The notes below the pieces were generated by a model. It worked only from the letters and a program-made list of their open reading frames with translations, was not told the origin of the DNA and ran no database searches. The position numbers and the translations under genes are program-made. A stretch of DNA of 64,000 nt from Lawsonibacter asaccharolyticus (GTDB lineage: Bacteria > Bacillota > Clostridia > Oscillospirales > Oscillospiraceae), in contig BFBT01000002.1 in assembly GCA_003112755.1 (NCBI GenBank), forward strand, positions 1-64,000, in the 5' to 3' direction. Shown in pieces: positions 10,689-59,621 of the stretch (its first letter is position 1; each line of letters opens with the position of its first letter).

Positions 10689-10989
10689 TCTTTTTTAACG
10701 AAGAAATGTGGCACAGGGACTTCTTCTTTCCAAAAAGCGGTGGCGCGGGCGGCTCCGTTCCGGAGCCTATGTCGGGTCCGTGAGACCTGCGACCTTCTTC
10801 GAAGGTTATGTGGCGCGTTTCCAACAACGGCGGAGTTGGTTGTAGGTTTTCGAAAAAAACCTATGTGGGTCGTAGTGCAAAACAAGGGAACCTCACGGAC
10901 CCGGCATAGAGTTCCCGCGAGGGAACCGGCTCGGGCGAGTGATGCCAGCAAATAGAACGGACTCAGCCTCTTTTCTTCGTTAAAAAAGA
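10689..10989. repeat. Interspersed inverted repeat, compact copy A (301 bp)
   Basis: The left outer end is TCTTTTTTAACGAAGAAA (10689-10706) and the right outer end its complement (10972-10989). Inner ends are GGGTCCGTGAG (10774-10784) and CTCACGGACCC (10892-10902). Each arm carries a GGCTCC...GGAGCC hairpin beside the inner end. The core has further small hairpins and no gene. No target duplication is evident. Confidence 0.8.
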
Positions 10990-11017
10990 CCCACTCTCCC
11001 CTATCAGAGCAGAAAGA

Positions 11018-11049
11018 AGCCCAGGACAGATGTTCCTCCATCCTGGGCT
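11018..11049 (-). terminator. Rho-independent terminator
   Basis: The stem AGCCCAGGA / TCCTGGGCT is followed by TCTTTC on the minus strand, directly after the HNH remnant. Confidence 0.6.
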
Positions 11050-11058
11050 CTCAACCAA

Positions 11059-11698
11059 TCAATGGTTCGACTTCTTAATATTGCAAGGCGTGCAGAGCAT
11101 CTGGCAATTCTCCCGCACCGTCTTTCCGCCCCTGCTCCACGGCTTAATATGGTCGGCGTGCATATCCTTGAAGTCCTTAGCCTGCCCGCAGATGGCGCAC
11201 TTGCCACCCTGGGCATGATAGGCGGACAGAGCGACATCGCTGTCGAACTGCCGGATGTTGAGATACTTTTCCTCGCCGGTGAGCAGGTATGGATAGATGC
11301 CCGCCTTCTTCTGCACCTCACTGTCAGCCAGCAGCCTCTTCACCTCCGCCTGGAGGAAGGCCGGGTCCAGGTTGTCGCCCTTGTGGGCGTTGTACAGGTG
11401 GCCCCAGGGCACACCTTTCATTGACTTGTCGGCGCTGGCGCCGAAGATCCGCTGCACCCAGTCGAAGACGGCCTCAAAATAGTTCCAGAGCTCATCCGCA
11501 TTCGGGTCGTTCCGGTGGGCCTGCATGAACTGGACGATGGCGTCCTTCCCGGTATAACCCTCTTCCTCTGCCTTCCAGGCAAAGGCCGTCTCCAGGTATT
11601 TCTGGCGGAATGAGTTCGGCTTCGATATCTTCGCGGCGGGTATAAAACTCGTCGTTCTTGGCTTTCTTGGCAGCACTGAGATTCTTGTTTTTGGCCAT
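11059..11698 (-). pseudogene. Chimeric remnant: methyltransferase N-terminus joined to DUF262/HNH C-terminus
   Basis: The first ~29 residues (KNLSAAKKAKNDEFYTRR) match the start of EcoRI-type adenine methyltransferases. The rest is the C-terminal ~200 residues of DUF262-type HNH nucleases: WNYFEAVFDWVQRIFG, MKGVPWGHLYN, EKYLNIRQFD, and an HNH core CAICG...HADHIKPWSRGG...CQMLCTPCN. A frame break near 11610 lies exactly at the join. This looks like a deletion that fused two neighbouring defence genes. The nuclease motif is complete but lacks its DUF262 half. The start is preceded by GAGGGA. Confidence 0.65.
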
Positions 11699-11732
11699 GG
11701 TGCAGTATCCCTCTTTTACTTCTTTTGGAGGA

Positions 11733-11742
11733 ATACTATGCA
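11733..11742 (-). promoter_or_regulatory. TGCATAGTAT promoter
   Basis: The minus strand reads TTGCATAGTATTCC, 35 bases before the ATG at 11698. Confidence 0.4.
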
Positions 11743-14248: not shown

Positions 14249-14561
14249 TCTTTTTTAACGAAGGAAGTAGCGGGGATTAGTTTGTTTGCCGGAAACTGCG
14301 GTGCGAGCCGGCTCCGTTCCGGAGCTTATGCTGGGTCCGTGAGACCGGCCCCGCACCCCTACTGGTATCTTTGGGAACTCCATTGTTGCACGAAAAAACG
14401 AGCTTGGCAAATCGTTTTCTAAAACAGCAAGCTGCGCGAAACCGTTTCGTCCGCGCCAAAGCAGCTGTCTCACGGCCCCCACATCAGCTTCCGAAGGAAG
14501 CGGCTCCGGCGAGAGTAAGCGGCAAAAGAAAACCTCCCATCACTTTTTTCGTTAAAAAAGA
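14249..14561. repeat. Interspersed inverted repeat, compact copy B (313 bp)
   Basis: Outer ends are TCTTTTTTAACGAAGGAA (14249-14266) and its near complement (14544-14561). The inner left end is GGGTCCGTGAG after GGCTCCGTTCCGGAGC; the inner right end is CTCACGGCCC followed by GGAAGCGGCTCC. The core contains a perfect CGAAACCGTTTCG palindrome at 14437-14449. Confidence 0.8.
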
Positions 14562-17542: not shown

Positions 17543-18679
17543 TTACTCCTCCCCCAACTTTCCCCGCAGACCCTTGTAGGCGCCAACGACCACGGCAAAC
17601 TCGATGGGCAGCTCCTTGCCGGCGATCATGGGCCTGGTGAGCAGCATATGCTCATCGTCCATGAGCCCGGTGCCCTTATAATAGTCCAGCAGCTGATTGA
17701 AAAAGGCCGCGCCGGTGCCGCCGGTGACCAGGATATAGCGAAAGTCGATGAGGTTATCATACTGCTTATTCAGGTAGCGGATCAGGTTGTTGCAAACAGA
17801 CTGGATCTTCTTCTCCCGAATGGACGACAGATCAATATTGACCACCTTGCCCTGATCCTTATCCATGTAGCGCACAGCCGTCTCGCCCTGGCTGAGCAGA
17901 TACTCGACCGCATAGTGCTTGATGTCAGGCCGGGCGTCAGCAATCTCCTTGGCTACGCCCAGGTTGACATTCTTCATAGCATAGTTGGTGTTGCTCTCTG
18001 CCCGGTCGTCGTCTACGCTGCCGCCCCTGGAAACGGGCACCAGGCCCATCGTGTAGTAGCCACCATCAATGACCAGTGTGGGGCCGTTGGCCAGGTACTT
18101 GAACTTGGACTCGTCGATGAAGCCGTTGTCATCGGAAGTCTCGCCCAGAATGGCAGCGATCGTCTGGGAGACGGTCATCACATTCTGCTCGTGGATGGTA
18201 AACCGGAACTCCTTCTCGGCCTCATTGTCAAAGGTCATGAAGAAACGCTGGTCGCCTGCCAGCAGACCTGTGACCGTAGAGGCATACTTGTTGCGAACTG
18301 CGTGGGGCAGAGCCACAATGAGCCGGATGTCCAGGTCCTCCCCATAGAGGCCAGTCAGCTCAATGGCCTTGGCGATGGCTGAGAGGATGCCCACAGCTGC
18401 CTCAGGAGAAACGAACCGGGCTTCCGTGTAAAACCGAGCCATAGGATCATCCTGGCTGTCCTTGTTATCATACATGACCGTGCGGGCGTACTGGCCAACA
18501 CGCCAAGTAGCGCCGGAGCTGTCCTTATAAAGGATGAACCCATGCCGCCCGCCGTAGTCGCTCATCTTGCGCTCATCTGTCTCCACGGCACAGAAAGGGA
18601 ACTTGAAATGGACCCCATTGGCGATGACCTTCATAGAATCGAAGCCAGGGTCAATGGCGATCAAAAGCTGCTTAGACAT
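17543..18679 (-). CDS. ParM/Alp-type actin-like plasmid segregation ATPase
   Basis: This 378-aa actin fold has phosphate-1 loop AIDPGFDSMKV (residues ~7-17), phosphate-2 loop TLVIDGGYYTMG (~210) and adenosine motif LVTGGTGAAFF (~335). Such proteins polymerise into filaments that push plasmid copies apart. GAGGAGG precedes the ATG, and a TGCATATTAT promoter lies ~65 bases further up. It heads a gene run with the PH-domain protein and two unknowns, just downstream of ParB on the same strand. The element thus carries both ParA-type and actin-type partitioning. Confidence 0.88.
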   Translation of the reverse strand: MSKQLLIAIDPGFDSMKVIANGVHFKFPFCAVETDERKMSDYGGRHGFILYKDSSGATWRVGQYARTVMYDNKDSQDDPMARFYTEARFVSPEAAVGILSAIAKAIELTGLYGEDLDIRLIVALPHAVRNKYASTVTGLLAGDQRFFMTFDNEAEKEFRFTIHEQNVMTVSQTIAAILGETSDDNGFIDESKFKYLANGPTLVIDGGYYTMGLVPVSRGGSVDDDRAESNTNYAMKNVNLGVAKEIADARPDIKHYAVEYLLSQGETAVRYMDKDQGKVVNIDLSSIREKKIQSVCNNLIRYLNKQYDNLIDFRYILVTGGTGAAFFNQLLDYYKGTGLMDDEHMLLTRPMIAGKELPIEFAVVVGAYKGLRGKLGEE

Positions 18680-18922: not shown

Positions 18923-19948
18923 TTAGCCCTCCTGCTGGTAGTACAGCTCCAGTGCCCGGTTCAGCACCTCGTCTGCCCGCTCGTAGTCGTCTGGCCGGAG
19001 CTTCGTCTTCACAGCGTCAGCAATGCGGGGCAGGGCCTTCTTGAAACGGCGGTTCAACTCTCGCGTTTTCTTCTGCTGTGCCTTCTCCTCCTTGGTGAGT
19101 ACGACCGGAGTCGCCTCCTCTGGCTGCTCCTCCCCTACCTTCTCAAAGTTCTCCGAGATAATATTCTCATGCCATTTCTCTTTTTCAGTTCCCGCATAGA
19201 CCTTGTGGAGCCAGGATATCTTCGGCTCAGAGAGCTTGTATTCCAGGAGCTGTTCCTGAACATCCGGCGGTAAGAAGGCAATATGATAGGCGATACGGCC
19301 GGTGACAGCTCCGGCATCCAGTCTATCCAGCCAGGGATCGATGAGGTCATGCATACGGACATATCGCTGGATCATACGCAGAGTCACCGACTTGCCGCCC
19401 ACCATAGCCGCCACCTGAGCCTGCTCCTGAGCCACTGCCTTGGTGATCTCTACATTGATGGCTTCATCGGCGGAATTGCCACCCTTAATTTGGGTGTAGT
19501 AGTTGTACCAGCCATAGATGAGGTCTCTGGGCGACAGGTCCCGCCGCAGCAGGTTGGTGATGTGGAAGATATTGCGGGCTGCATCGTCATCCAAGTCCAT
19601 GATTCGGCATGGCACCGTCTTCAGTCCGGCAGCCTTTGCATTCGTCCATCGCTGTTCCCCGGCCAGGATTTCGTACTTAGACATCTCGATGGGCGACTTG
19701 CGGACAATGAGCGGCTCCAGTACCCCATGTTCCTTCATACTCTCCACGACCTGCTCCTGCAGGAGAGACCCGTATTTAGAGTAGTCTGAGGTTCCCTTTA
19801 GTGTGCAGGGATGCAGCATGTCAACAGGAATATCCTGGAAATTAGACAGAGCCCTCCCTGCTCCTGCTGAGTCGATGGGCAGCTTGCTGGTCGCATCAGT
19901 AGCTGACCGTTCCCTGCGTTCAAATCCAAAGTTCTTCTTCGTTGCCAT
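18923..19948 (-). CDS. parB: ParB partition protein (centromere binding, CTPase fold)
   Basis: This 341-aa protein has the ParB N-terminal domain: IPVDMLHPC, the degenerate arginine box ILAGEQRWTNAKAAG and the helical NLLRRDLSPRDLIYGWYNYY segment. A central helix-turn-helix region follows (KSVTLRMIQRYVRMHDLI, ~residue 190), then a Lys/Glu-rich linker and a C-terminal helix for dimerisation. It should load onto parS-like sites and spread. It starts one base after the parA stop, so the two are coupled. Many CGAAACNGTTTCG palindromes upstream of parA are candidate binding sites. Confidence 0.9.
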   Translation of the reverse strand: MATKKNFGFERRERSATDATSKLPIDSAGAGRALSNFQDIPVDMLHPCTLKGTSDYSKYGSLLQEQVVESMKEHGVLEPLIVRKSPIEMSKYEILAGEQRWTNAKAAGLKTVPCRIMDLDDDAARNIFHITNLLRRDLSPRDLIYGWYNYYTQIKGGNSADEAINVEITKAVAQEQAQVAAMVGGKSVTLRMIQRYVRMHDLIDPWLDRLDAGAVTGRIAYHIAFLPPDVQEQLLEYKLSEPKISWLHKVYAGTEKEKWHENIISENFEKVGEEQPEEATPVVLTKEEKAQQKKTRELNRRFKKALPRIADAVKTKLRPDDYERADEVLNRALELYYQQEG

Positions 19949-19949: not shown

Positions 19950-20840
19950 TTAACCTCTCACCTTCATGTTCAACTTCTCTAACAGTTCGTCAGCAAAATC
20001 GATGTAGTCCTTTGCAACAGAGCTCTTGGGCGCATAGCGGATCAGGTCGATCTGCCGGTTTGTGTATTCAGCCGCAGCCAGCCCATCCCGGATCTTTGTT
20101 TGGAACAGTACAGTGCCCAGCTCAGCTGCCAGCTGCTCATATTCCTGCATATAGCTGCTGGCCAGTATTGTCCTTCGTTTGTACTTGGTGATAAGTAGCC
20201 CCAATATTTCGGCGTGCATGTCGGCATTTTCAGCCTTCATCTGCTCGATAGTATCTCGGAGGTCCAGCAGGGCTGTCCGGGAAGTATCCTCCGTGAATAC
20301 CGGGATGATGATATAGTCGGCAGTATAGAGGCTGTTCAGTGTGAGCAGGGTGAGTGACGGGTTGGTGTCCAAAAAGATGAAGTCGTAGCGACTGCGGACC
20401 TTCCGCAGAACCCAGTCCAAGGTCGTGTGCTCGGTGGCGCCCCAGCCCTCATTGAAGCGGGACTCTAGCAGCTCGTAGATTTGCTCAGGCGTGGCGCCAC
20501 GCTCTCTTAGGGCGAGAAAATCACTCCGGGGCATCAGACTGCGGCCAGTCCATTGGGTGAGGTTCGGCGAGGCCCGGACCAAATCGCCCAGGTTGGACTT
20601 GACAATGGCATCCTCAATGGAACACTCCTGTTTGAGTACTTCCAGGATGCTCAGGCTAGTGTTGTCACCTAGCTTGATGGGTCCAGGACCACCAGCTACG
20701 GCGCTGAAGTTGCCCTGCGGGTCCATATCAATGGACAGGACTTTGTAGCCTTTACCGGAGAGGATGGATGCCAGAGAGGTTGCAGTGAGAGTCTTCCCTA
20801 CCCCACCCTTTTGATTTGTGACTGATATGACAGTTCCCAT
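19950..20840 (-). CDS. parA: ParA partition ATPase
   Basis: This 296-aa deviant-Walker ATPase has VTNQKGGVGKT (Walker A with signature Lys), SIDMDPQGNFS (A') and FIFLDTNPSL (Walker B). There is no N-terminal helix-turn-helix, so this is the short ParA class that does not bind its promoter through an added domain. It works with ParB to position plasmid copies on the nucleoid. The promoter is canonical, unlike most others in the window. The ribosome binding site is an AGGGGGA stretch 11 bases upstream. Confidence 0.93.
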   Translation of the reverse strand: MGTVISVTNQKGGVGKTLTATSLASILSGKGYKVLSIDMDPQGNFSAVAGGPGPIKLGDNTSLSILEVLKQECSIEDAIVKSNLGDLVRASPNLTQWTGRSLMPRSDFLALRERGATPEQIYELLESRFNEGWGATEHTTLDWVLRKVRSRYDFIFLDTNPSLTLLTLNSLYTADYIIIPVFTEDTSRTALLDLRDTIEQMKAENADMHAEILGLLITKYKRRTILASSYMQEYEQLAAELGTVLFQTKIRDGLAAAEYTNRQIDLIRYAPKSSVAKDYIDFADELLEKLNMKVRG

Positions 20841-20914: not shown

Positions 20915-21182
20915 TCGGATGGAGGTAAATTTCTTTTGTTTTTGTGAGCGAAACGGTGTCGTGGGGATGGGCTGGGATTGAACCTGGGCGGAAACCTTTT
21001 GCGGCATGGTGTTGCTGCGCAGGTTGGGACAGGTCTTTTCTAACGAAGAAAAGAGGCGGTGGAATTTTTCTTTGTCAGAGACTCTCGCCGGGGACGGTCC
21101 CCACAGGGACCTACTTGGGGTCCGTGAGGAATCGATTTGCCCCATATGAAACGGTTTCGCGTCCACCGTTGTACAAAACAGA

Positions 21183-21211
21183 GAGCTCTCCCGGCCGAAA
21201 CCGGGAGAGCT
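21183..21211 (-). terminator. Terminator of the secreted-protein gene
   Basis: The strong stem GAGCTCTCCCGG / CCGGGAGAGCTC with a CCGAAA loop is followed on the minus strand by TCTGTTTTG. Confidence 0.65.
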
Positions 21212-21226
21212 CTTTGGTACAGCAGA

Positions 21227-21850: not shown

Positions 21851-21881
21851 GGAGAATTTCCTCCTTTCTTTGTTTGAGTCT

Positions 21882-21891
21882 ATGATATGCG
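21882..21891 (-). promoter_or_regulatory. CGCATATCAT promoter
   Basis: The minus strand reads GCGCATATCATAGAC, about 32 bases before the start at 21850. A CGAAACCGTTTCG palindrome is centred 44 bases upstream. Confidence 0.5.
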
Positions 21892-22218
21892 CGTTGCCCC
21901 AAATTCATTGTCCGAACGAAAATGTACGCGAAACCGTTTCGCGGAAACAAATCGTTGGCACAAACAACGAAGCACTGTACGCCTGGGAACCTCACGGACC
22001 TCACATAGGCTCCGGAACGGAACCGGCCCGCAGCGAGAGGCTTCGGCAAGAAAGAAATTCCCTGCCGTTTTCTTCGTTAAAAAAGACTTGCCAAACCTAT
22101 CCATGGCAGAAAGGCCACCAAACAGAAACCTGCGAAACGGTGTCACCAGCACCTCCACGACACCGTTTCGTCTGACCCCGAAGGCCTCATCCACTCTGCC
22201 GATAGCTCTGACGGGACT

Positions 22219-28388: not shown

Positions 28389-28419
28389 TGCATAGGATAG
28401 TCCAGATACCCAATTCTGG
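28389..28419 (+). promoter_or_regulatory. TGCATAGGAT promoter with ACCCAATT leader
   Basis: TGCATAGGAT (28389-28398), AGTCCAGAT, then ACCCAATTCTGG (28408-28419). It matches the promoter at 7402-7371 almost base for base, though the downstream genes are unrelated. Confidence 0.65.
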
Positions 28420-28707: not shown

Positions 28708-28748
28708 CACAAACAAGAGAGGATAACAAAATTTCAGGAGGTAGTATT

Positions 28749-46022: not shown

Positions 46023-46136
46023 TGTAAACACTTCCTTTCTAAAACAGCCGGCGGCGCCGGCAGAGGAGAGGAGGAAGCTCCGCTCCCGCTGCCAGCTGTT
46101 GCCAGCCTGGGTCGTTGTCAAGTTTTGGGTTCTGAA

Positions 46137-49100
46137 TCAGAACTCATACTCAACCGTATAGGTGATATTGCTCTTGCCATACATACAATCGTGGTTGGTG
46201 TAATAATAGAACCTCATCTCCGTGTAGGTGCCGCTGGGAAGCGTGCCGGAGAGGGTCACGCCATTGCTGACCTCTTTATACGCAACCTGCTCCCACTGCT
46301 TAGTGAGGATATTGTAGGCCTCAACTTTGCCCCAGTCGTTGCCGCCATGGCCACTCACCGCGGGAACATTGAAGGAATACTTGGTGATGTAGCCATAGAT
46401 AGTCTCACCGTTGTCGGTGAAGCTGATGCCAGGTTCCTCAAGATAGGAGTTTGCGCCAGTCAGTTCCATGCCGCCGCCAGTATTGTCGGCAACAAAGAAG
46501 ACGATAGCCGACCACTTGGAGGTTGCGCCGAACTCGTCGACGGCCCGGCACTTGATCAGATGTTTGCCGTACTCATAGGTGGAGGACTCAGATTTCCGGC
46601 CTTCCCACTCATAGGTGATATTGTCTCCATCAGGGTCGGTAGCGGAGGCGGTGATGGTCACCGTCTGGCTGGGCCGGACGACGCCGTCAGAGGGCGTCTT
46701 ATTGATCACAGGAGCGGAGGGAGCCTGGTTGATAAACTCCATGGTCTTTTCACTCCACTCGGAGGCTGCGCCATACTCATCGACAGCTCGGACACGGATC
46801 CTGTGGACTTTGCCGCGCTCGTAGAGGCCGTCGCTGCGGTAGTCGCCGTCCCACTCCAGAGTCACGCTGTCGCCGTCCGGGTCAGTGGCCTTGGCGGAAA
46901 CATTGCCGACAAACTTGCCGTTCTGGAGCTGCCGGGTCGGTTCGACTGTAAAGGAAGTGATGACGGGCGGGTCATTGATAAACTCAATTTCACGGGAGAC
47001 CCACTCGGAGGCAGCGCCCCACTCGTCCACAGCCCGCACACGGATTGTGTGAGTGCCGATTGAGTAGTAGCCGTCTTCCTGGTACTCGTCATCCCACTCC
47101 AGATGGACTTCATCGCCATCCGGGTCAGAGCAGGTGGCGTTCAGGTCTGCATAATAGAGGCCGCCCACAACATTACGGGTGGCTTCGGCGGTAAAGGAGT
47201 CGATCCGGGGCGCCATGTTGGTCACATCCACGGTGGCAAACGCCGTGTGCGGGTTGCCGGCATCATCGACCGTAGTGGCCGTGATCGTGTAGGTGCCAAC
47301 ATTGAACAGGGTCAGTTGTCCAGCGGTGCCGGTCAGAGATCCAGTATTGCCGTCCAGTTCGACGGGCACATTGCCCATCTTCACGCCCCACTTGACATTT
47401 AGAGCGCCGCTGCCGGAGAGGCTCACATCGAAGGGTTGTCCAACATGGATCTGGGAGGGAGCATTCACGGACAGGTCAGCCTTGTAGATGACCTGGATGT
47501 TCCGCTTTGCCACAGAGGGCGTTCCGCTCCCGTCGTCCAGGGTGGCGATCAGGGTATAGCTGCCAACCTCGGGGAATACGACCTTGCCACCGTCATTGTC
47601 CAATCCGGACAGGTCCATGGCGTAGGTGGCGCCGTCCTTTTCCACAGACCACTGGATATTGGCGCCGGTGGGATTGACCAGAGAGTCCATGATGACAGGG
47701 ACCTCATTGCCCACATACTCCATACCAGAGATGCTGAAGGACAAGCCGCCCACAGGCAGTACCCGGATCGTATCGGAGGCGCTGAACTGGCGGCCAAGGC
47801 CGTCCGTCATTGTCCCGATCAGCTCGTAGGTACCGGCTTCCGTGAACTGGATGCATCCGCCGTAGTTGTTCAAATCGCCGGAGACATACCGGTTAATGTC
47901 CACGCTCTGTCCATCCTTCTTCAGGGACCAGTTAATGGGGAGCGTATTGTTGTTGCCCAGCGTCAGGACTTCAGCCTCGTGGCCCACATAGACTTCCGTC
48001 TCGGTGATGGACACACTGAGCTCCTGCTCAGCCAGAACTTCAATGCTGGGTCCATCGAAGGAGAACACCCGGCCGGTGGCATCTGTGACCTCGCAGCCGA
48101 TCGTATAGGTACCAGCATGCTTGATGCGGATGTCGCCAGGCTCGGCGGTCAGACCGCCAGCCACATAAGTGCTCCAGGCCTGCCGCACGCCGTAGGTGTC
48201 GGCGATGAACCAGCTGATGGAGGTACCTTCAATGCCAGAAACATTGGAGGACTTCACAGGCACCAAAAACTCAGTGTCCGTATGGGCGTAGCTGGGAAGC
48301 GTCCAGTTGACTTGCGGGATCGGGTAGACGGTGAATTCCTGCTCATAGGAGTAGGCTCGGCCGCCGCCGTCCGTGAAGACAGCCTTCAGCTTGTAGTCGC
48401 CCGTCTGCCGGAACTGGAGCTTGCTGCCCTCGGCGCTCAGGTCGCCGGACATCACCGTGGAGGGCTGGATGACCTCGCCGTTGCGAGTCAGCGTCCAGTA
48501 CAGCGCGTTGCTACCCAGTTCCCTGAAATCAGTGGTCAGGTCGACCTCAGTGTCCGTGTGGAACGAAGCAGGCAGATAGAAACCAGCCTGGCCCACCGGG
48601 TAGACCTGGATACTGCTGGAGGCGGTCGTCTCACGGCCCAGTTCGTCAGTGGTCTTTGCGATAAAGGTATAGAGGCCAGGTTCAGTAACGAACCCATGGC
48701 CGCCGTCGGCTCCCAGCTCAAACTTGGGTGCCACTTCCTTGCCATCCTTTAGGACAGCCCAATAAATGTTCTGCCCATCCCAGTTTGCCTTGTCCAAAGT
48801 GACATCCAGAGCCTCGTCCGTGTGGCCGGTGGCTTCGGTGGTGACCGTCAGCCCGATCACCGGGTAGATCTGCACCATCTGAGAGCAGCTGTACTCGCGG
48901 CCCAGCTCATCTTCAGCCGTGGCAATCAGCGTGTAGGCGCCCACATCCGTAAACCGGATATTGCCGCCCTTGTTGTTCAGGGAACCAAACACATAGTCCT
49001 TCATCTCAGCGGGGACGCCATCCTTGGACAAGGTCCAGGTGACATTCTGATCCGCCAGATCGGAGGACAGCAGGTCTACAGGGATGCCGGAGTCAGTCCA

Positions 49101-52100
49101 GGCAGTCGCCGGGAGCGTGAAGCTCAGTCCGGCGATCGGATAGACCTTGACAGACCTGGTCGCCGAGGTAAACACGCGGCCGGTGGCGTCCATCACGGAA
49201 GCCGTGATGTCATAGACACCGGCCTGGTCGATCTGGATGGAGCCTCCACTGCCGGTCAGGCTGCCAGTATAGCTGGTGGCCGTATCCGGGTCGTTGGAGG
49301 GCGTGACCTTCCAGGTGACAGGTAGGTCAGTGTTCGTGTTCAGGGTAACTTCGGCGTATTCGTCCATATGGACAGCCGCCGTGGTATTCAGGTCCAGAGT
49401 CAGGACCGGGAACACCTGAATGGCCTGGTCGTAGGTGAAGGTGCGACCAAGCTCGTCGGTCACGGTAGCCGTGAGGACATTGGCGCCAGGCTTGGTGAAC
49501 TTCACGCTGCCGCCGTCATTGGTCAGGGCTCCATCCACGCCAGAAGCCAGCGGGGTAGGTTCCCCATCCACAGTCAGGGACCAGACGATCTGGTTCTCAC
49601 GCAGATTTTCGGATGTCATCTTGACCACGACCGTCTCATCCGGGTGAGAGAACTCAGGCAGCTTGAAGGACAACTGGACTGTATTCCAAACCAGTATGTT
49701 GGTCCTGGCAAAGAATTCGCGTCCAAGCTCATCCGTCACAGAAGCGGAAATAAAATGGGTGCCAGGTTCGGTGAAGTTTAAGGTGCCGCCGTCATTTCCG
49801 AGCATATTGGGAACCTCCGCGCCCGTCTCCGATATCACGGACCACTTCACCGTCAGGCCGCCCAGGTCCGGTGCGTCCAGACCAATTGTCGCAGCCTGGT
49901 CGAAGTGGATGTTCTGAGGGGCATCGATGCTCAATGTGATGACCGGGTAGACCTTGAGTGAAACACTCTCTGTGTACTCACGGCCCAGTTCATCGGTCAC
50001 GGTGGCGGTCAGCGTATAGTCGCCGTCGCCCATCTCGTCGAAATCAAGCTCGCCACCGTCATCGTTGAGCACTACTGGAACCTCGACTCCATCGCGCTCC
50101 AGTTTCCAGGAGACGCTTGCAGGGGCACCATTCCCAACTGTCAGGGTGATTTTGGCATCCTCATCCTCGTGGAGTCTGGTCACTTCGATAAGAGCATCTG
50201 CCGCATCTGGCTCATCAATCCGGTCTGCTGAGAGGGATAGATCCAGGTCTTCGATGACGCGGACCAAGACTTCCTCGGACTCATACTCGCGGCCAGCCTT
50301 GTCGCTGGTCTTGGCAATGAAGGAGTACTCGCCATTTTCAATGAAGCTGATCTCCGAGATGTTCGACAGGTCGAGCCCTTCATACACGGCCTCATCCTTC
50401 TTGACTTCCCAGGTGATGGCCTGGTCTTTGGTGGCATTCTTGGTATCCAGGCTCAGGTTCAGCTTTTCGTCCAGGTGGAGACCAGCCTTGTCAGCCGAAG
50501 CAGTGAGCTCGATGACGGGCAGAACCTCGACGGAAGCCTGTTCGGTGAACTCCCGGCCCAGCCGGTCGGTCACCGTTGCCTGAATATTGTAGACTCCAGG
50601 GATGTCGATCTGGATATTGCCACCGTCATCGTTCAGGTTCCCCCGATAGGTAACAACACCCTGCTCATTGGTCACTTCCCAGGAGACAGGGTAGGAATCA
50701 TAACCAGCCATCTCTACAAGGAACGCCTGGTCGGTCCAGCCGTACTGAGCAACGATCAGGCTGGGATCCAGCAGGCCTTCGATGGTGATTGACTCCACAT
50801 TAGAGATGAAGACGCGGCCAGAAGCGTCGGTAACCGACGCTTGTAGCTGGTACTGTCCAACAGTAGGGATCAGCAGCTCGCCGCCAGTAGCGCCAAGCTG
50901 ACTGTTTGTCACAGAGCCCCAAACCAGCTCGCTGCCGTCCTGGGACAGTGTCCACTGGACGGGCAGGCCTGCATCGTTGGCGGTGACAGTGGCGGCCACA
51001 TCAATGTGTGTCTCGCCGGGGTCAATGCTAATGTCCAGAGAGATGACCGGCAGGATGGTAATTGTCTGGGTCTCCTTATAGATCTTCCCGGCTGCATCCG
51101 TATAGGAGGCAGTCAGGGTATAGGTCCCAGTTTCGGGGAGGGCCAGAGAGCCGCCCTCATTGTTGAAGCCGTCCGGCATCTCATAGGGCTGATCGTCCTT
51201 CGTCATGCTCCAGCTGACATTCCCTCCCTCACCATTCTCGAACAGCAGTTTCACTGGAGTCGTCGAATCAGTGTGGGCATATTGGGGGAGGGAGAAACCA
51301 AGGTCGGCCACAGGGATGACCTTGACGGTCTGTTCGCAGGTATCCGTGTTGCTCCCGTTCTTGGCCACCCCCTTGAGAATATAGGTGCCAGACTCCAAGA
51401 ATGACAGCTCGCCGCCATCCTTGGTGAAGCCAGGCAGCTCCTTGGCAGTCCCATTCAGGGTCAGAGACCATTCCACCGAGTCTGTGTTGGTCAGGGTCGT
51501 CTTTACAGTGGTGGTATCCCCGACATAGAGGATGCTGGGGAGGGTGAATTCAATGTCGGGTTGCTTCACAACGATGGGCCGGCTGCCGCCGCCTCCTCCG
51601 CCTCCTCCGGTAGGCCTGTTGGGGGTTGTGGGCTTCTTGTTCGTCCATATGACCTCATTGTTGGGGTTCATCGAACCAGGGTAGGTGACCTGGCAGTCCT
51701 TTTTGGAGATCTCAGTCGCCTTCTCATCGAAGATGACCTGTACATCTCCATCGTTTCGGGGCGTGACAACGCCCGCAATATCGGACTTGCCTTCCACATG
51801 GATCTTAGACCCACCCCAGACGACCAGGTTGCCCTTGACCGTCACATCCTCCAAGGTCAGCTCCTGCTCAGCAAGGCTGTTGGCGATGATGAGGTCGCCA
51901 TTGAACACGGCATCGCGGATATCCACATCGCCGCGGACCAGTACAATGTCGTCGTACTCGCCCGTCAGAGTGCCCCGCTCATGGATATGACCGAAGATCC
52001 TGGCAAGGATCTGCGCCATCTGAGCACGGGTGATGTTGTCCTTGGGACCGAGCGCGCCGTTCGGATAACCGGCGACAAACTCCCTCTCTACCATACGGCA

Positions 52101-52619
52101 GATATCGGCGTAGGCCCAGGAACCGACGAGGCCGGCGTCCGAGAATTTGGACAAGTCCTCATCGTACTCCATCATCAGACAGAGTGCGCGGGCGATCACG
52201 ACGATCGCCTGCTCGCGGGTAATGTGGTCGTTCGGCCGCATGATGTTGCCATCATAGCCAGCCAGGGTGCCCATCTGAACTGCTTGCGCAATGTAGTCGT
52301 AGTACCAGCTGCCCATCGCCACATCCGTGAATGCAGAGATGTCGGCGCCCTTGTAGGCGCCGTAAAGCCGGTCAATCATAGTTGCCATCTGTGCCCGGGT
52401 GAGAAAACCGTCTGGAGACATCGTGTCTTCACTGGTTCCCGTCATGACTCCATTTTCGACAGCCCAATCCAGGGCGTTATACGCCCAGTGGCCATCGACA
52501 TCCTTAAAGTCTCTGATGTTGGCGGCGAGGGCGCCGATGGGAAGCGAGTTGACCATCAGCACCCCTGCAAGAAGCAAGGGCCCGCACCGTCTCAGTTTGG
52601 AATGGATCTCAAGGCTCAT
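46137..52619 (-). CDS. Giant secreted repeat protein with N-terminal SLH domains
   Basis: This 2160-aa protein has a signal peptide ~1-33 (RRCGPLLLAGVLMVNSLPIGALA). Three SLH domains follow immediately (~35-215: DFKDVDGHWAYNALDWAVENG; ITREQAIVVIARAL; ITRAQMAQILARIF). Then come a small beta-rich region, a polyglycine linker (~340-350) and about 15-16 ~90-residue Ig-like repeats with the xVxPVxxLxFxLPxxAxTD pattern. Three PKD-like repeats (SDPDGDEVHLEWD; ~1800-2060) and a C-terminal beta domain complete it. It mirrors the neighbouring giant protein, with anchoring at the opposite end. AAGGAGG precedes the start. Confidence 0.88.
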   Translation of the reverse strand: MSLEIHSKLRRCGPLLLAGVLMVNSLPIGALAANIRDFKDVDGHWAYNALDWAVENGVMTGTSEDTMSPDGFLTRAQMATMIDRLYGAYKGADISAFTDVAMGSWYYDYIAQAVQMGTLAGYDGNIMRPNDHITREQAIVVIARALCLMMEYDEDLSKFSDAGLVGSWAYADICRMVEREFVAGYPNGALGPKDNITRAQMAQILARIFGHIHERGTLTGEYDDIVLVRGDVDIRDAVFNGDLIIANSLAEQELTLEDVTVKGNLVVWGGSKIHVEGKSDIAGVVTPRNDGDVQVIFDEKATEISKKDCQVTYPGSMNPNNEVIWTNKKPTTPNRPTGGGGGGGGSRPIVVKQPDIEFTLPSILYVGDTTTVKTTLTNTDSVEWSLTLNGTAKELPGFTKDGGELSFLESGTYILKGVAKNGSNTDTCEQTVKVIPVADLGFSLPQYAHTDSTTPVKLLFENGEGGNVSWSMTKDDQPYEMPDGFNNEGGSLALPETGTYTLTASYTDAAGKIYKETQTITILPVISLDISIDPGETHIDVAATVTANDAGLPVQWTLSQDGSELVWGSVTNSQLGATGGELLIPTVGQYQLQASVTDASGRVFISNVESITIEGLLDPSLIVAQYGWTDQAFLVEMAGYDSYPVSWEVTNEQGVVTYRGNLNDDGGNIQIDIPGVYNIQATVTDRLGREFTEQASVEVLPVIELTASADKAGLHLDEKLNLSLDTKNATKDQAITWEVKKDEAVYEGLDLSNISEISFIENGEYSFIAKTSDKAGREYESEEVLVRVIEDLDLSLSADRIDEPDAADALIEVTRLHEDEDAKITLTVGNGAPASVSWKLERDGVEVPVVLNDDGGELDFDEMGDGDYTLTATVTDELGREYTESVSLKVYPVITLSIDAPQNIHFDQAATIGLDAPDLGGLTVKWSVISETGAEVPNMLGNDGGTLNFTEPGTHFISASVTDELGREFFARTNILVWNTVQLSFKLPEFSHPDETVVVKMTSENLRENQIVWSLTVDGEPTPLASGVDGALTNDGGSVKFTKPGANVLTATVTDELGRTFTYDQAIQVFPVLTLDLNTTAAVHMDEYAEVTLNTNTDLPVTWKVTPSNDPDTATSYTGSLTGSGGSIQIDQAGVYDITASVMDATGRVFTSATRSVKVYPIAGLSFTLPATAWTDSGIPVDLLSSDLADQNVTWTLSKDGVPAEMKDYVFGSLNNKGGNIRFTDVGAYTLIATAEDELGREYSCSQMVQIYPVIGLTVTTEATGHTDEALDVTLDKANWDGQNIYWAVLKDGKEVAPKFELGADGGHGFVTEPGLYTFIAKTTDELGRETTASSSIQVYPVGQAGFYLPASFHTDTEVDLTTDFRELGSNALYWTLTRNGEVIQPSTVMSGDLSAEGSKLQFRQTGDYKLKAVFTDGGGRAYSYEQEFTVYPIPQVNWTLPSYAHTDTEFLVPVKSSNVSGIEGTSISWFIADTYGVRQAWSTYVAGGLTAEPGDIRIKHAGTYTIGCEVTDATGRVFSFDGPSIEVLAEQELSVSITETEVYVGHEAEVLTLGNNNTLPINWSLKKDGQSVDINRYVSGDLNNYGGCIQFTEAGTYELIGTMTDGLGRQFSASDTIRVLPVGGLSFSISGMEYVGNEVPVIMDSLVNPTGANIQWSVEKDGATYAMDLSGLDNDGGKVVFPEVGSYTLIATLDDGSGTPSVAKRNIQVIYKADLSVNAPSQIHVGQPFDVSLSGSGALNVKWGVKMGNVPVELDGNTGSLTGTAGQLTLFNVGTYTITATTVDDAGNPHTAFATVDVTNMAPRIDSFTAEATRNVVGGLYYADLNATCSDPDGDEVHLEWDDEYQEDGYYSIGTHTIRVRAVDEWGAASEWVSREIEFINDPPVITSFTVEPTRQLQNGKFVGNVSAKATDPDGDSVTLEWDGDYRSDGLYERGKVHRIRVRAVDEYGAASEWSEKTMEFINQAPSAPVINKTPSDGVVRPSQTVTITASATDPDGDNITYEWEGRKSESSTYEYGKHLIKCRAVDEFGATSKWSAIVFFVADNTGGGMELTGANSYLEEPGISFTDNGETIYGYITKYSFNVPAVSGHGGNDWGKVEAYNILTKQWEQVAYKEVSNGVTLSGTLPSGTYTEMRFYYYTNHDCMYGKSNITYTVEYEF

Positions 52620-53169: not shown

Positions 53170-53285
53170 TCTTTTTTAACGAAGAAATCTGGTGGGGCTG
53201 TTTGCTTTTCCAGATGGCATCGTTGTAGGCCGGCTCCTTTCGGAGCCTATCTATGGTTCGTGAGACCTGACGACAACAAAACGAA

Positions 53286-53310
53286 ACGCCTTCCCCCGGA
53301 GGGAAGGCGT
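53286..53310. terminator. Bidirectional terminator
   Basis: The stem ACGCCTTCCC / GGGAAGGCGT has TTTTTG on the plus side and TTTCGTTTTG on the minus side, after the 53323 stop. Confidence 0.7.
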
Positions 53311-53322
53311 TTTTGATGGGGC

Positions 53323-53745
53323 TTAGTCCCTGAATTCTTCCTCGGGCAGATCCCCGTCGTCGGCGTCTGCGCCAACGGCGGCGAACTCATCGCCGAGGGT
53401 TCTCGACTCTTCCTCAAGAGTAGTTTTGACCGGTTCTTCTTTCTGGGGAACAGCCTGGCCTTCAGCCTGCTCCGCAGAGGCCTTCGAACCCTTACCACCC
53501 TTGGCGTTGGCAACCAGCCGATCGATGTCGTCCTTGTAGACGACAAGCTGGCTGGCGGCCAGGCCGAGGCCGATGAGGAAACCACCGTGAGAAGCCCCCC
53601 AGTAGTAGAGGGTTTCGAACACGATAGCTCCGCCCAGTACGGCCGCAAAGCCCAGAGTGCAGGAAATCAGAGTCCGCTTGATGAACTTCATCTTACGAAT
53701 ACTCTGCCCCATTCTTCGGACGATCTTTTTAATACCCTTGAACAT
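53323..53745 (-). CDS. Small membrane protein with acidic tail
   Basis: This 140-aa protein has a basic N-terminus (MFKGIKKIVRRMGQSIRKMK) and two hydrophobic helices (~26-45 LISCTLGFAAVLGGAIVFET; ~50-68 GFLIGLGLAASQLVVYK). An acidic cytoplasmic tail follows (EEESRTLGDEFAAVGADADD). The ATG at 53745 has GGAGG 8 bases upstream. Second gene of a two-gene minus-strand operon. No family assigned. Confidence 0.7.
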   Translation of the reverse strand: MFKGIKKIVRRMGQSIRKMKFIKRTLISCTLGFAAVLGGAIVFETLYYWGASHGGFLIGLGLAASQLVVYKDDIDRLVANAKGGKGSKASAEQAEGQAVPQKEEPVKTTLEEESRTLGDEFAAVGADADDGDLPEEEFRD

Positions 53746-53766
53746 TTGCAATTCCTCCTTCTGAAT

Positions 53767-54225
53767 TTAGGCCCGCTCTCTCTCGGGCACCGGCTCGCTT
53801 TTCTCCTTATCAGATCCAGCGAGTCTCACGATATCTCCGTAATGCACGGCGGTCGAGACGACAGCCATGGAAATTACGAAGATGGGGACCCTCATCCCCA
53901 CGAACCCCATCATGGCTTTCATGATTCCGGAAATAGCCCAGAGAACCACGAATGCGCCGATGACGGACGCGATTCCAGAGACAGACCGCTGAAGTCCGCC
54001 TCCGTTCTTGCCTCCCTTTCCTGTACAGATACCTATCAAAATAGCTGTAGGAATAACGCACCACAAAGTGTAGTTCGTCACTAGGGCGTACACAAATCCA
54101 AAGATTCCTGTTAACACCCCAACCAGGACATAGGTCAAGGCCGTGGAGATCGCTCCAATCACAAGGATTCGGAGCAGAATTGGCAGCTTGCGGATACTGC
54201 CATTGATGAGGGTAAGGCACGACAT
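53767..54225 (-). CDS. Multi-pass membrane protein
   Basis: This 152-aa protein has four predicted transmembrane helices (ILLRILVIGAISTALTYVLV; FVYALVTNYTLWCVIPTAIL; GIASVIGAFVVLWAISGIM; VPIFVISMAVVSTAVHYG) and a charged C-terminus (KEKSEPVPERERA). AAGGAGG lies 7 bases before the ATG. Twenty-one bases upstream of the next gene. Family unknown. Confidence 0.7.
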   Translation of the reverse strand: MSCLTLINGSIRKLPILLRILVIGAISTALTYVLVGVLTGIFGFVYALVTNYTLWCVIPTAILIGICTGKGGKNGGGLQRSVSGIASVIGAFVVLWAISGIMKAMMGFVGMRVPIFVISMAVVSTAVHYGDIVRLAGSDKEKSEPVPERERA

Positions 54226-54315
54226 ACAATTGCCTCCTTATGTATTTTTTTTGTCCCCATTGTGCATTTTGGCAAGCACGGCCTATATAATCACCCAAAG
54301 CGGATGGAATACACA

Positions 54316-54325
54316 ATTCTATGCA
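54316..54325 (-). promoter_or_regulatory. TGCATAGAAT promoter
   Basis: The minus strand reads TATGCATAGAATTG, 91 bases before the start at 54225. Confidence 0.4.
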
Positions 54326-54576
54326 TACGCGCTGAAAACAATTCTAGCCAAAAACTGTCCCAAGAAGGAAAGATCGAGCAAATTGCTGTACCAAACAGTG
54401 AAGTACATCAGGCGGCTAACATAGAACGCAAGATAGCTCACGAGGCACGGAAAGGCTCCGTGAAGAGCCGAATGCAACAAGAACCCAGTGGCAAAAGGAG
54501 AAACCTTTTGCCACATTCTTTGGCTTAAAATACTTGTCCATGCACTTGCCTCAGATTTTATTTTTTTTGCACAAAA

Positions 54577-54654: not shown

Positions 54655-54722
54655 TGTCCGCCGCTCACCCGTAGCTAAAGCAAGGGGCTTGTGGCTTTCG
54701 GAGAAAGTCATGTGGCGCGGCG
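54655..54722 (+). repeat. Solo IS200/IS605-type end sequence
   Basis: GTAGCTAAAGCAAGGGGCTT followed by the GGCTTTC-GGA-GAAAGTC hairpin and ATGTGG matches the sequence at 27893-27925 near the left end of the tnpB element. No transposase gene is attached. It overlaps and truncates the 3' end of the 54708 gene. Confidence 0.55.
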
Positions 54723-56650: not shown

Positions 56651-56716
56651 GGTTAAGCCTCCTTTACGAACGAACCGTATCTTGACGGCACAGATAATTT
56701 CTTGTCTTTCACTATT

Positions 56717-56726
56717 ATTATATGCA
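56717..56726 (-). promoter_or_regulatory. TGCATATAAT promoter
   Basis: The minus strand reads GTGCATATAATAATAG, 67 bases before the start at 56650; perfect TATAAT. Confidence 0.55.
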
Positions 56727-56753
56727 CTTCTCCGTTTTAATATTTCCGGAGGA

Positions 56754-56848
56754 CTCACGGACCAAACATCGGCTCCGATAGGAGCCAGCCCGCGGAAGAG
56801 GCCACCTGTAAAAGCAACTCTTCATGCATTTTTCTCCGGTAAGAAAGA
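56754..56848. repeat. Interspersed inverted repeat, single arm J
   Basis: Inner CTCACGGACC (56754-56763) is followed by the hairpin GGCTCC-GATA-GGAGCC and a degenerate outer end TTCTCCGGTAAGAAAGAT (56831-56848). No clear partner arm was found. Confidence 0.55.
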
Positions 56849-56909: not shown

Positions 56910-56941
56910 TGCATATAATATGCAGACGATTTGCATAGAAT
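56910..56941 (+). promoter_or_regulatory. Palindromic TGCATATAATATGCA and TGCATAGAAT promoter
   Basis: TGCATAT-A-ATATGCA (56910-56924) is a perfect 15-base palindrome that presents the promoter motif on both strands. TGCATAGAAT (56932-56941) follows and lies 26 bases before the TTG start at 56967. Confidence 0.5.
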
Positions 56942-56966
56942 AGAGATAAGAAAGGAGGCGTTTGGA

Positions 56967-59444
56967 TTGAGTGACCTCAAATTCAGCTTGGATGCAGAAG
57001 ATACATCCTTACTTGCCCAATATGCCATTGGGGCTTCCTTGAGCTCGGAAGTCCGTGTTGTCCGCAACATTTACCGGAACAACGAGAATGGTTACAGTAT
57101 CTACGATGCAGAGGATACTAGCTACCGGCTGCTGAAGCTCAGCGGCTATTTCCCAACGCCCCTGCGCCTAGATGGGTACTACAGGGTCCGTGGGATCATC
57201 AAGAAAGGCAAATATGGCCGCACCCTGCAGGTGGATGACTACAAGAGTGCGTTGCCGGAGGATCAAGATTCGGTCATCACGGTCCTGCGCACTCTCCCTG
57301 GCCTGGATACCCGGGCGCCGGATATCTACCGAGCATTGGGACCTCAAGCTCTTGGACTAATCATGGACTCGCCCGAGATAGTCGCCAAGAAGATCCCGGG
57401 AGTCGGTGTAAGTACGGCCATCCGCTGGCAGCAGGCGCTGAAAGGTTTCCGGGAGGACGATGTGGTGCTGAAGACGCTTCAGGAATACCAGATCCCTGCC
57501 TCCGACGCCAGCCGGTTGTTGGAGAAATACCCGGATATCATCCAGCGGCTGAAGACGAGCCCCTACTTCTTGGCTGATGAGATCAATGGATTTGGCTTCC
57601 TCAAGTGTGATAAGATTGCCCTGGAGAATGGTTACCCGCCCGATGGCCTGGAGCGGTTGGAGCAGGCGATGCTCTATGTCTTGCAGCAAGACTGCTGGAG
57701 ATATGGCAACTGCTATATGCAAAGCAAGCTGTTCTCTGAGCAGGTGAGCCGGTTGGTCGATATTGAACTGGACTATAAATCGGCTATGGCAATTGTCCGA
57801 GGTGAAGCAGAGCCACCGCCTGGCGTTGACAAGCAGGCGCTCGCCAATGCCTTGGCTTCCAGGCGAGTCCACGCGGGACACGGGTTCCGGTTTCCAGTGT
57901 CCAAAATCCCCAGCAGCGCCCTGAAGATGGCCCTAGGCGCCCTGCGTAGTTCCAGCCGTATCATTGTGGATGAGGATCGGGTCTACTTGGGGTATCTCCA
58001 CCAGGCCGAGTCAATGACAGCCCGTTGCCTGCGAACGATGGCCGCATCTGAATATGGGAATTTCCCGGATGCGGAGGAGGTTCTGAATCAGGTTTGCGTA
58101 GCGGACGGCATCATTCTGGAGGAAAAACAGCGGGAAGCTGTTCTCCGGGCCTGCGCCCACCGGGGTGGAGTTCTGGTGCTGAATGGCCGCGCCGGCTGTG
58201 GTAAAACATTTGCCTTGAATATCATTATAAAAGTCCTGCGTGAGCTTTACAAGCGGCAAGGACTGTCTTTTGAGGCTCAGGTCATGGCTCCTACCGGACA
58301 GGCTGCACAGGTGGCCCACAAGGCCACAGGGTTGCCTACCAGTACCATCCACCGAGCCCTGCATATCGTTGTTGACAAAAACATGGAGACTGACACGCTG
58401 ATCACCTGTGACTGTGTGGTTATCGACGAGTTCTCCATGGTCGGTATCAATTTGGCATCCATTTTACTCTCTTCTATTGCCGGCGGCACCAAGACGATTA
58501 TTATGGGCGACTTCCACCAGCTGCCCAGTATTGACCCTGGCAATGTACTCAAGGACATCATTGAGTCGGGGACCATCCCAGTGGTCACCCTGAATGTGGT
58601 CAAGCGTCAAGGAGCTGGCTCCGGCGTCCTTTATAACGCCAACGCAATCCTGGATGGCAACCCCATCAAATCTATGAAGGTCAATGATAAGGGCGTCAAG
58701 GATAATGCTTATATTTTCAAGAGCGATGATCCGACGGCCGCCCGGAATGCCGTCGTCTCGATGGTAGCTGCCATGGGTAAACGCGGGTACCGCCTGCAGG
58801 ACATCCAGGTTCTATGCCCACAGAAGCAGACTGATGTAGGTGTATATGCTCTGAACTATGCCCTGCAGGCCGCGTTCAACCCGCCAGCTGAAAGCAAGGT
58901 TGAAGTCTTCAGCCAACGGGTGACCATTCACGATGAGAATGGCGAGCTGAAGACAGTGAGCCTGATGCTCCGGGAGGGTGACAAGGTTGTCAACACCGCC
59001 AACAACTATGAGATGAAGTTCTTTACCTGGCAGAAGGGAGTTGGCTTTTCCGAAGACTTCAGCCGCAAGGGCATCGTGAACGGGGAGATGGGCCGGGTGG
59101 CTAAGATCATGAAGGTAAAGGACGGAAAGACAGTAAGGCAGCGAGTCTATGTGCAGGTATCCAGCGGCCAGTTTGTGATGTATGAGGATAACTGGGACGA
59201 TCTGACGCTGGCCTATGCTATGACCATCCACAGGGCGCAGGGCAGCCAGTGGCCCATCGTCATTGCGCCTATCATGTCCTGCAACCGCACGATGCTCAAC
59301 CGGCAGATCCTGTACACACTCTACACCCGTGCGCAGGACTCGACCGTGTTGTATGGAACACAGGGCTCTATCCAATATGCTATCGACAATACTCATTCGG
59401 CCAAGCGGAACACCTGGCTTCAGGAGCGGCTCCGCAGGGCTTGA
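56967..59444 (+). CDS. RecD-type SF1B helicase, diverged from the 12015 protein
   Basis: 825 aa from a TTG at 56967 with AGGAGG 8 bases upstream. The N-terminal OB-like region (NIYRNNENGYSIYD; LKLSGYFPTPLRLDGYY) and helix-hairpin-helix segments (KKIPGVGVSTAIRWQQ; FLADEINGFGFLKCDKI) precede Walker A NGRAGCGKT (~415), Walker B CVVIDEFSMVGIN, GDFHQLPSIDPGNVL, and LAYAMTIHRAQGSQWP near the C-terminus. The domain order is that of RecD2, but the sequence is well diverged from the other copy (NGRAGCGK versus GGPGTGK) and longer. It may be the replicative or repair helicase partner of the element's DnaE (inference). Confidence 0.85.
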   Translation: MSDLKFSLDAEDTSLLAQYAIGASLSSEVRVVRNIYRNNENGYSIYDAEDTSYRLLKLSGYFPTPLRLDGYYRVRGIIKKGKYGRTLQVDDYKSALPEDQDSVITVLRTLPGLDTRAPDIYRALGPQALGLIMDSPEIVAKKIPGVGVSTAIRWQQALKGFREDDVVLKTLQEYQIPASDASRLLEKYPDIIQRLKTSPYFLADEINGFGFLKCDKIALENGYPPDGLERLEQAMLYVLQQDCWRYGNCYMQSKLFSEQVSRLVDIELDYKSAMAIVRGEAEPPPGVDKQALANALASRRVHAGHGFRFPVSKIPSSALKMALGALRSSSRIIVDEDRVYLGYLHQAESMTARCLRTMAASEYGNFPDAEEVLNQVCVADGIILEEKQREAVLRACAHRGGVLVLNGRAGCGKTFALNIIIKVLRELYKRQGLSFEAQVMAPTGQAAQVAHKATGLPTSTIHRALHIVVDKNMETDTLITCDCVVIDEFSMVGINLASILLSSIAGGTKTIIMGDFHQLPSIDPGNVLKDIIESGTIPVVTLNVVKRQGAGSGVLYNANAILDGNPIKSMKVNDKGVKDNAYIFKSDDPTAARNAVVSMVAAMGKRGYRLQDIQVLCPQKQTDVGVYALNYALQAAFNPPAESKVEVFSQRVTIHDENGELKTVSLMLREGDKVVNTANNYEMKFFTWQKGVGFSEDFSRKGIVNGEMGRVAKIMKVKDGKTVRQRVYVQVSSGQFVMYEDNWDDLTLAYAMTIHRAQGSQWPIVIAPIMSCNRTMLNRQILYTLYTRAQDSTVLYGTQGSIQYAIDNTHSAKRNTWLQERLRRA

Positions 59445-59456
59445 ACGAAAAATTGA

Positions 59457-59501
59457 CCCCACCTCCGATGGATATACTCCGGGAGGTGGGGTTCTTCTTT
59501 T
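59457..59501 (+). terminator. Rho-independent terminator
   Basis: The stem CCCCACCTCC / GGAGGTGGGG is followed by TTCTTCTTTT. Confidence 0.8.
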
Positions 59502-59526
59502 GCCGTTTTGGGACTGGTAGTCCGAG

Positions 59527-59621
59527 TCTTTTCTAACGGAAAAGAGGCGGAGATCCTTTCTCCTGCCAGAGGATGTAACACGGGCCGGCCTCCGTTCTGG
59601 GGCCTATGTCGGGTCCGTGAG
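59527..59621. repeat. Interspersed inverted repeat, single arm K
   Basis: Outer TCTTTTCTAACGGAAAAG (59527-59544), hairpin GGCCTCCGTTCTGGGGCC and inner GGGTCCGTGAG (59611-59621). The inner end overlaps the 3' end of the SLH gene that stops at 59604. Confidence 0.65.

Follow-up and report, generated by a model that had tools for sequence, protein, structure and literature searches.

The first 64,000 bases of contig BFBT01000002.1 of Lawsonibacter asaccharolyticus (assembly GCA_003112755.1; this whole stretch is referred to below as the window) carry a family of inverted repeat arms that lie between genes, and the question raised by this locus is what such arms are and how they came to be there. 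A reading made from the letters alone (the sequence-only reading) had offered three answers: non-autonomous transposons, structured RNAs, or nucleoid or segregation sites. We traced the arms through the genome (4.28 Mb in 7 contigs) and found them confined to this contig (C2; 431,489 bp, of which the window is bases 1-64000), which looks like a giant plasmid. Judged from sequence, we give a probability of about one half to the arms being the ends of old REPIN- or MITE-like non-autonomous miniature mobile elements, which would have spread within one plasmid and would now be dormant. Among the three answers, non-autonomous transposons fit best because cores are shared between elements in different surroundings, because a unit bearing an Rpn-family nuclease gene has a gene-less relative, and because the outer ends decay in place; structured RNA is disfavoured, and nucleoid or segregation sites are retained as a doubtful second possibility.

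Anatomy and census of the arms

Each element is laid out as an arm, a core and an inverted arm, and an arm of ~96 nt comprises an outer box (TCTTTTTTAACGAAGAAA), a variable linker, an optional hairpin and an inner box (GGTCCGTGAG), both boxes being present where the sequence-only reading had placed them. When up to 2 mismatches are allowed, the outer 18-mer has 10 occurrences in the window and none in any of 100 first-order Markov samples; across the 4.28-Mb genome it has 91, every one on C2 and six of them within the contig ends that overlap, and the reversed pattern is absent. Exact GGGTCCGTGAG was found in 36 places, 35 on C2 and one on C1 (3,503,692 bp, taken as the chromosome, of which most of our comparisons cover 400 kb), with four for the reversed-pattern control. 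Among 106 arms collected by motif, the inner box lies 82-91 nt from the outer end in 67, at 65-69 nt in 18, at 110-114 nt in five (which have an extra hairpin by eye), and is missing under the rule used in 16. The GGCTCC/GGAGCC hairpin, described earlier as part of the common design, is optional, being absent by eye from the 18 short ones.

A covariance model was trained on 66 arms of the middle class, one of the 67 having been set aside because it straddled a fetch boundary. Applied to the first 404 kb of C2, this gave 131 matches at E<=1, of which 123 at E<=1e-3 are counted as arms below and eight weaker ones (E 0.0019 to 1) are excluded. The 400 kb of C1 yielded no model match at E<=1, and in the whole genome all 128 matches at E<=0.001 fell on C2, overlapping ends included (150 of 1,913 candidates were scored). 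Fifteen arms lie in the window, or one per 4.3 kb, which is denser than the one arm or pair per 5-6 kb estimated before. At least four compact copies had been described; the second arm of one of them (34751-34910) has degenerated beyond what the model recognises. The arms and units of the window are as follows.

10689-10784, + strand: arm, left half of compact element 10689-10989 (96.6 bits; exact outer and inner boxes)
10892-10989, - strand: arm, right half of the same element (96.6 bits)
14249-14343, + strand: arm, left half of compact element 14249-14561 (90.6 bits)
14469-14561, - strand: arm, right half of the same element (79.2 bits)
21034-21128, + strand: left arm of a 1,053-bp unit that encloses a 183-aa open reading frame at 21227-21778 (-) (94.6 bits)
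21991-22086, - strand: arm, right end of the 21034-22086 unit (100.9 bits)
28151-28272, + strand: left arm of a 1,675-bp unit, carrying an extra hairpin (64.5 bits)
29751-29825, - strand: right arm of the 28151-29825 unit, short and lacking the main hairpin (31 bits)
34751-34839, + strand: diverged arm (34.2 bits)
34849-34910, - strand: degenerate second arm in which the inner box CTCACGGACCA persists (no model match at E<=1)
37845-37939, + strand: left arm of compact element 37845-38079, diverged (41.3 bits)
37979-38079, - strand: diverged arm, right half of the same element (37.1 bits)
53170-53264, + strand: left arm of a 1,364-bp unit with two small open reading frames (85.2 bits)
54437-54533, - strand: right arm of the 53170-54533 unit, diverged (34.9 bits)
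56754-56848, - strand: single arm (75.7 bits)
59527-59621, + strand: single arm overlapping the 3' end of the gene at 59604-60404 (-) by 18 nt (80.9 bits)

Majority identity per column is 93% in both the outer and the inner box, 86-90% in the stem and 64% in the linker; over all pairs of the 66 aligned arms, the outer box is 86.5% identical and the linker 47.5%. Immediately beyond the outer end stands a G or an A in 106 of the 123 arms.

The sequence-only reading had raised the prospect that the ends might be equally dense in unrelated genomes; arms were seen in their own genome only. The exact outer 18-mer was absent from 399 other genomes of the family, and the arm model had no match in 63 other genomes of the genus under stricter filters, with at most 60 candidates scored per genome. 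One compact element had no match in plasmid and phage collections, and joint arm patterns had none in viral contigs; the collections searched may omit close relatives of the window. The exact 18-mer alone occurs in at least 120 viral stretches, with one match each among the 80 listed, and is read as chance; six single matches of the inner-end pattern in genome contigs are likewise taken as chance from their titles and counts. As the earlier reading also supposed, none of our searches brought up a named family that has such ends, and no description of these repeats was found in titles or abstract openings of the literature, which is not a claim that none exists.

Shared cores, a gene-bearing unit and decay in place

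With the arms trimmed away, cores still match between several compact elements that stand in different surroundings. Eleven alignments between elements reached at least 130 nt (60-nt flanks included), and five of these run through the core or inner flank and end no more than 3 nt from an outer end:

88618-88896 with 95996-96270 (the whole element, 75% identity)
170772-171178 with 377610-378064
10689-10989 with 131841-132169
81025-81360 with 83131-83226
251560-251995 with 68674-68769

Another lies wholly inside the element, and the other five extend 28-60 nt past the outer end. A boundary of the unit at the outer end is thus supported, not clean. At one junction, homology of the flanks (208612 with 309612) stops exactly at the outer end, on one side; two homologies that end at or near the inner end (259359 with 144114, and 127624 with 282352, where a diverged arm matched by the model at 282216 lies 45 bp on) decide nothing.

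The unit at 68674-70027 (1,354 bp) holds an Rpn-family nuclease gene (PDDEXK_2, 46.7 bits; TIGR01784, 75.1 bits) that is split over two frames. An inverted compact element at 251560-251995 (436 bp) lacks the stretch with the Rpn gene and is collinear with this unit in four blocks, the first two of which overlap by 28 nt on the side of the unit. The nuclease is a weak candidate for the mobilising enzyme, coming from one unit with a frame-shifted gene; if the link were true, it would provide terminal repeats for a nuclease family annotated as a putative transposase. Reverse transcriptase was rejected as a mobiliser, its three matches being on C1 and C3 and none on C2.

Such a unit could also be taken at face value, with each inward-facing pair representing a gene-carrying mobile unit of 0.2-3.5 kb, the compact copies its deletion derivatives, and the recombinase either an Rpn-type nuclease or an enzyme since lost. 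This accords with the count of inward pairs (45 within 4 kb, of which 18 enclose cores of 0.6-3.5 kb) and with the relation of 68674-70027 to 251560-251995; moreover, once pairs less than 400 bp apart are dropped, the remaining 69 single arms still alternate in orientation (same orientation in 21 against 34 expected, p=0.0013). This alternation is not significant when pairs within 2 kb are dropped (p=0.17), however, the gene-less relation is seen in one unit only, and the cargo genes differ, with no common recombinase by eye. Three other Rpn-like genes are present, of which one (349093-349911) is in a 7.1-kb inward unit and two (132287-133144 and 274600-275457) are in none. We therefore regard gene-carrying units of this kind as decidedly unlikely.

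The third line of evidence for miniature mobile elements comes from arms that were duplicated together with their flanks, for which three comparisons could be made (two share one copy, the borders of the regions are approximate, and duplicates may be relaxed). Outer boxes are identical at 12/18, 17/18 and 14/18 positions (43/54 in sum), linkers at 33/48, 41/42 and 32/42 (106/132) and outside flanks at 81/120, 98/120 and 95/120, with the inner box holding somewhat better (12/12, 11/13 and 9/13). Under the family-wide ratio of outer box to linker, 11 or more outer-box differences in place would have p=8e-5. That outer ends decay at the rate of the linker in these duplicates argues against a function in place, as support and not as proof.

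If the arms are indeed ends of miniature elements, their boxes would have been recognised by a sequence-specific enzyme, which would have copied the unit into spacers beyond transcription units without duplicating the target; insertions that broke genes or promoters would have been lost. We infer dormancy because there are no close copies, the best linker identity being 86%; a family that has not recently moved would account for its absence from the chromosome, although other insertion sequences cross between the replicons.

Several observations weigh against this account. Absence from the chromosome itself needs dormancy as an extra assumption, and no transposase has been assigned to the arms. 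The 27 compact pairs (some with partial arms) showed no target-site duplication, with one two-base match against 0.84 expected and p=0.72 in a looser test, and no two-sided empty site was found for 83 elements compared with C2 and the 400 kb of C1, nor did a related plasmid come to light. Near-identical arms are lacking (the median linker identity to the nearest neighbour is 67%), and the arms of one compact pair are no more alike than random ones (linker identity 48.2% against 47.5%, 11 pairs). In the positional duplicates, the stem is better kept than the linker (19/24, 20/20 and 18/20; 57/64 in sum). The five of 11 alignments that overrun the outer end weaken the case for mobile elements; a positional duplicate accounts for one, a promoter motif outside the arm is common to three, and one (377610 with 400072) is unexplained. 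Finally, the 78 occupied gaps among 180 of at least 150 bp are more evenly spaced than random choices would be, with a coefficient of variation of 0.60 against 0.845 +/- 0.082 in draws without replacement (0 of 3,000 random draws as even).

Placement on the plasmid and the main hairpin

The contig that harbours the arms was taken as a circular molecule of ~402.3 kb, because its ends overlap by 29 kb: the first 29,220 bases recur at the contig end at 99.78% identity, in an alignment with 54 gap openings and no mismatch. It also encodes a TraG-type ATPase and a PcfJ-like protein, and the window contains, in whole or in part, the following genes of plasmid type (all genes being from our own crude caller).

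17543-18679: partition-type gene, weakly ParM-like (33 bits against a cut-off of 417)
18923-19948: ParB (TIGR00180 above cut-off)
19950-20840: ParA
60956-64588: DnaE, the plasmid's own (plasmid relatives at 37-47% among the 15 matches listed for a query of the 1,015 residues inside the window)

The ParM-like protein was found in its own genome only among 61 genomes of the genus and had no match in viral contigs, where ParB had no confirmed match. A phage origin, which had rested on 21 tRNA genes, a DNA polymerase and 'terminase' PHROG hits, was dropped because the 'terminase' matches TraG and HerA families, and because ParA, ParB, PcfJ and the plasmid-related DnaE indicate a plasmid. Stretches of 99.7-100% identity are common to C2 (7751-9871, which carries an IS110-type transposase gene, and 285007-286735) and the 400 kb of C1 examined, so that C2 is not isolated and the replicons exchanged DNA recently. 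Miniature repeats are mainly familiar from chromosomes; one dense family limited to a single giant plasmid, and absent from a chromosome with which it shares sequence, makes replicon-limited spread testable.

Only two of the 123 arms overlap a called gene, each at one end, where a random 96-mer would be wholly intergenic 21% of the time. One is the overlap of 18 nt with the gene at 59604, already singled out as the sole exception; plasmid-wide there is a second, of 10 nt, with the gene at 362848. By the motif list, arms occupy 44 co-directional, 16 convergent and 19 divergent gaps, with 0 to 3 arms per gap. Upstream of diverging starts (69 arms), outer ends keep a distance of at least 92 nt in all but one case, at 64, and they lie 48-88 nt past a stop codon in 22 of 54 cases, which places the arms mostly outside transcription units. 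Single arms in co-directional gaps lean to one direction, 20 against 10. Neighbouring arms are arranged + - in 48 cases, - + in 48, + + in 15 and - - in 11, with same-orientation neighbours in 27 of 123 against 61 expected, and neighbours less than 400 bp apart face inwards in 27 cases and outwards in four.

These features suggest a different explanation, in which a plasmid-encoded DNA-binding protein recognises the arms so as to organise, insulate or segregate the molecule, and selection keeps each site. Confinement to C2, gaps occupied more evenly than at random, boxes that are much better conserved than the linker, the inward-pair arrangement, and the presence of ParA, ParB and weakly ParM-like genes on the plasmid are all consistent with such maintenance sites. 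Selection at each site sits poorly with the decay of outer ends in the three positional duplicates, which is as fast as that of linker and flanks; further, cores match along with the arms, the number of arms per gap varies from 0 to 3, and no such binding protein was identified. Maintenance sites are thus a possible but doubtful explanation, and mobile elements remain the one we prefer.

The covariation test proposed with the sequence-only reading bore out its hairpin: the main stem covaries. In its six pairs, 93.2% of 395 cells are paired, 32 cells are changed on both sides against 11.6 +/- 2.8 in shuffles, and the covariation score is 0.270 against 0.162 +/- 0.012 (neither value was reached in 500 shuffles). 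The signal is less clear in two of five measures, namely both-side-changed pairs (31/500 shuffles) and further pair types (188/500). At the best pair, 37 of the 66 arms have C-G and 23 have T-A. A first hairpin in the linker (GGC..GCC) was rejected, since it contributes no convincing Watson-Crick pair to the 30 strongest column pairs.

A covarying stem, outer ends often placed just past stop codons and set back from diverging starts, and the lean of single arms in co-directional gaps would all be expected if the arms were transcribed as terminators, processing sites or small RNAs. Mismatches in the stem are nonetheless G.T in 13 and A.C in 16 cases, with no strand bias, and this parity argues against a role as RNA; the consensus folds into just 4 pairs (-3.4 kcal/mol), no conserved T run follows the hairpin, and the main hairpin is missing by eye from 18 of the 106 arms. 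Arms are found in all three gap types alike, showing no clear direction relative to genes, and Rfam gave no match at gathering score within the window, which the search covered. Structured RNA or transcription punctuation is for us very improbable.

A promoter-like motif specific to C2 was also observed, reading roughly AAAATATAAA ~9 nt before CTGCATATAATA (spacing by eye), for example at 56700-56750 in the window and at 88550-88602 and 95930-95985 of C2; exact TGCATATAATA occurs 50 times on C2 and not at all in the 400 kb of C1. Arms as leaders or promoters were rejected, as arms are present in all gap types and the 26 outward-firing motifs within 300 nt on the outer side sit 34-285 nt outside the outer end.

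Known repeat families and micro-hairpins

REPINs and BIMEs are doublets of REP sequences, proposed in PMC3116915, which also mentions small dispersed repeats, to be moved by RAYT tyrosine transposases. The present elements resemble REPINs in having inverted conserved ends around a short variable core (27 inward pairs have cores of less than 400 bp) and in being dispersed between genes. They differ in that their arms are ~96 nt long, where PMC3733652 gives REPs as 20-40 nt, and in being confined to a plasmid. No GTAG or CGTC tag is conserved in the 67-arm consensus (by eye), and no cognate RAYT lies beside the arms: the one Y1 transposase gene of C2 (118106-118540), to which RAYT typing was applied, scores as IS200/IS605 (134 bits, cut-off 55) and not as RAYT (39 bits, cut-off 80), further Y1 matches being on C1 and C5. 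The arms nearest to this gene are more than 3 kb off, yet it lies inside an 8.6-kb inward-facing interval. Membership of the REPINs thus fails on RAYT and tag.

MITEs derive from DNA transposons and have terminal inverted repeats. The elements share such repeats and intergenic dispersal with MITEs and, like them, include a unit with a gene and a collinear relative that lacks it; they differ in their long, hairpin-bearing arms, in that the arms of one element are not matched to each other, and in that no intact transposon with these ends was identified. Membership here fails on the target-site duplication. TnpB-bearing IS200/IS605-type elements on C2 have short terminal hairpins like the arms, with ends that are unlike them by eye. 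Two such tnpB-bearing elements of group A (112178-113711 and 317674-319207, 99.7% identical) are inserted at the same outer-box base of different arms, and a third arm (283481) begins with the end of an element of the 112178-113711 type; the arms serve these elements as an insertion site.

A second family on C2 consists of micro-hairpins of 24-27 nt, of the form TGTG(A/G)C(C/T)TT(C/T)-loop-(A/G)AA(A/G)G(T/C)CATGTGG, with 18 copies on the plasmid and none in the 400 kb of C1. Two copies lie in the window:

27896-27924, + strand: micro-hairpin
54690-54715, + strand: micro-hairpin

Three insertions of 24 nt could be compared with empty homologues. Two are in the tnpB-bearing copy 92105-93640 (against two empty copies), where both fall within the called tnpB gene and one has changed border bases, and one is at the end of the element copy 106579-108244 (against one empty copy). 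In addition, arm 133997 contains a micro-hairpin that its positional duplicate 131841 is without. To our knowledge, 24-nt micro-hairpins would rank among the smallest insertions with empty-site evidence. A hairpin followed by ATGT(G/A) occurs 70 times on C2, arms included, and 17 times in C1; as a guess, the arm's own hairpin, with its similar tail, may be such a module. The small dispersed repeats (SDRs) of cyanobacteria (Elhai et al. 2008) are reportedly mobile hairpins of 21-27 nt, with compensatory changes in the stem, that nest in other elements. The micro-hairpins resemble SDRs in this design; the host differs, and the arms are about four times longer. The ~123 arms might instead constitute an undescribed replicon-specific system of convergent pairs that organises the plasmid, spread more evenly than by chance, in part enclosing gene cassettes, taking up 24-nt micro-hairpins and mobilised by a kind of enzyme not yet tied to terminal repeats, such as the Rpn nuclease; we hold this to be unlikely.

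Other features of C2 were noted in passing. Of its 21 tRNA genes (at 88.1-96.4 kb, 110.8 kb and 241 kb), 18 lie within ~8 kb. All-against-all comparison linked a group of 25 proteins of ~130-390 aa, encoded for example at 81636-85598, 96805-104040 and 167229-170711, in which the single member scanned had no Pfam match. Within the window, two giant adjacent reading frames of 2,626 and 2,139 aa occupy 38142-52556, a region rich in internal repeats.

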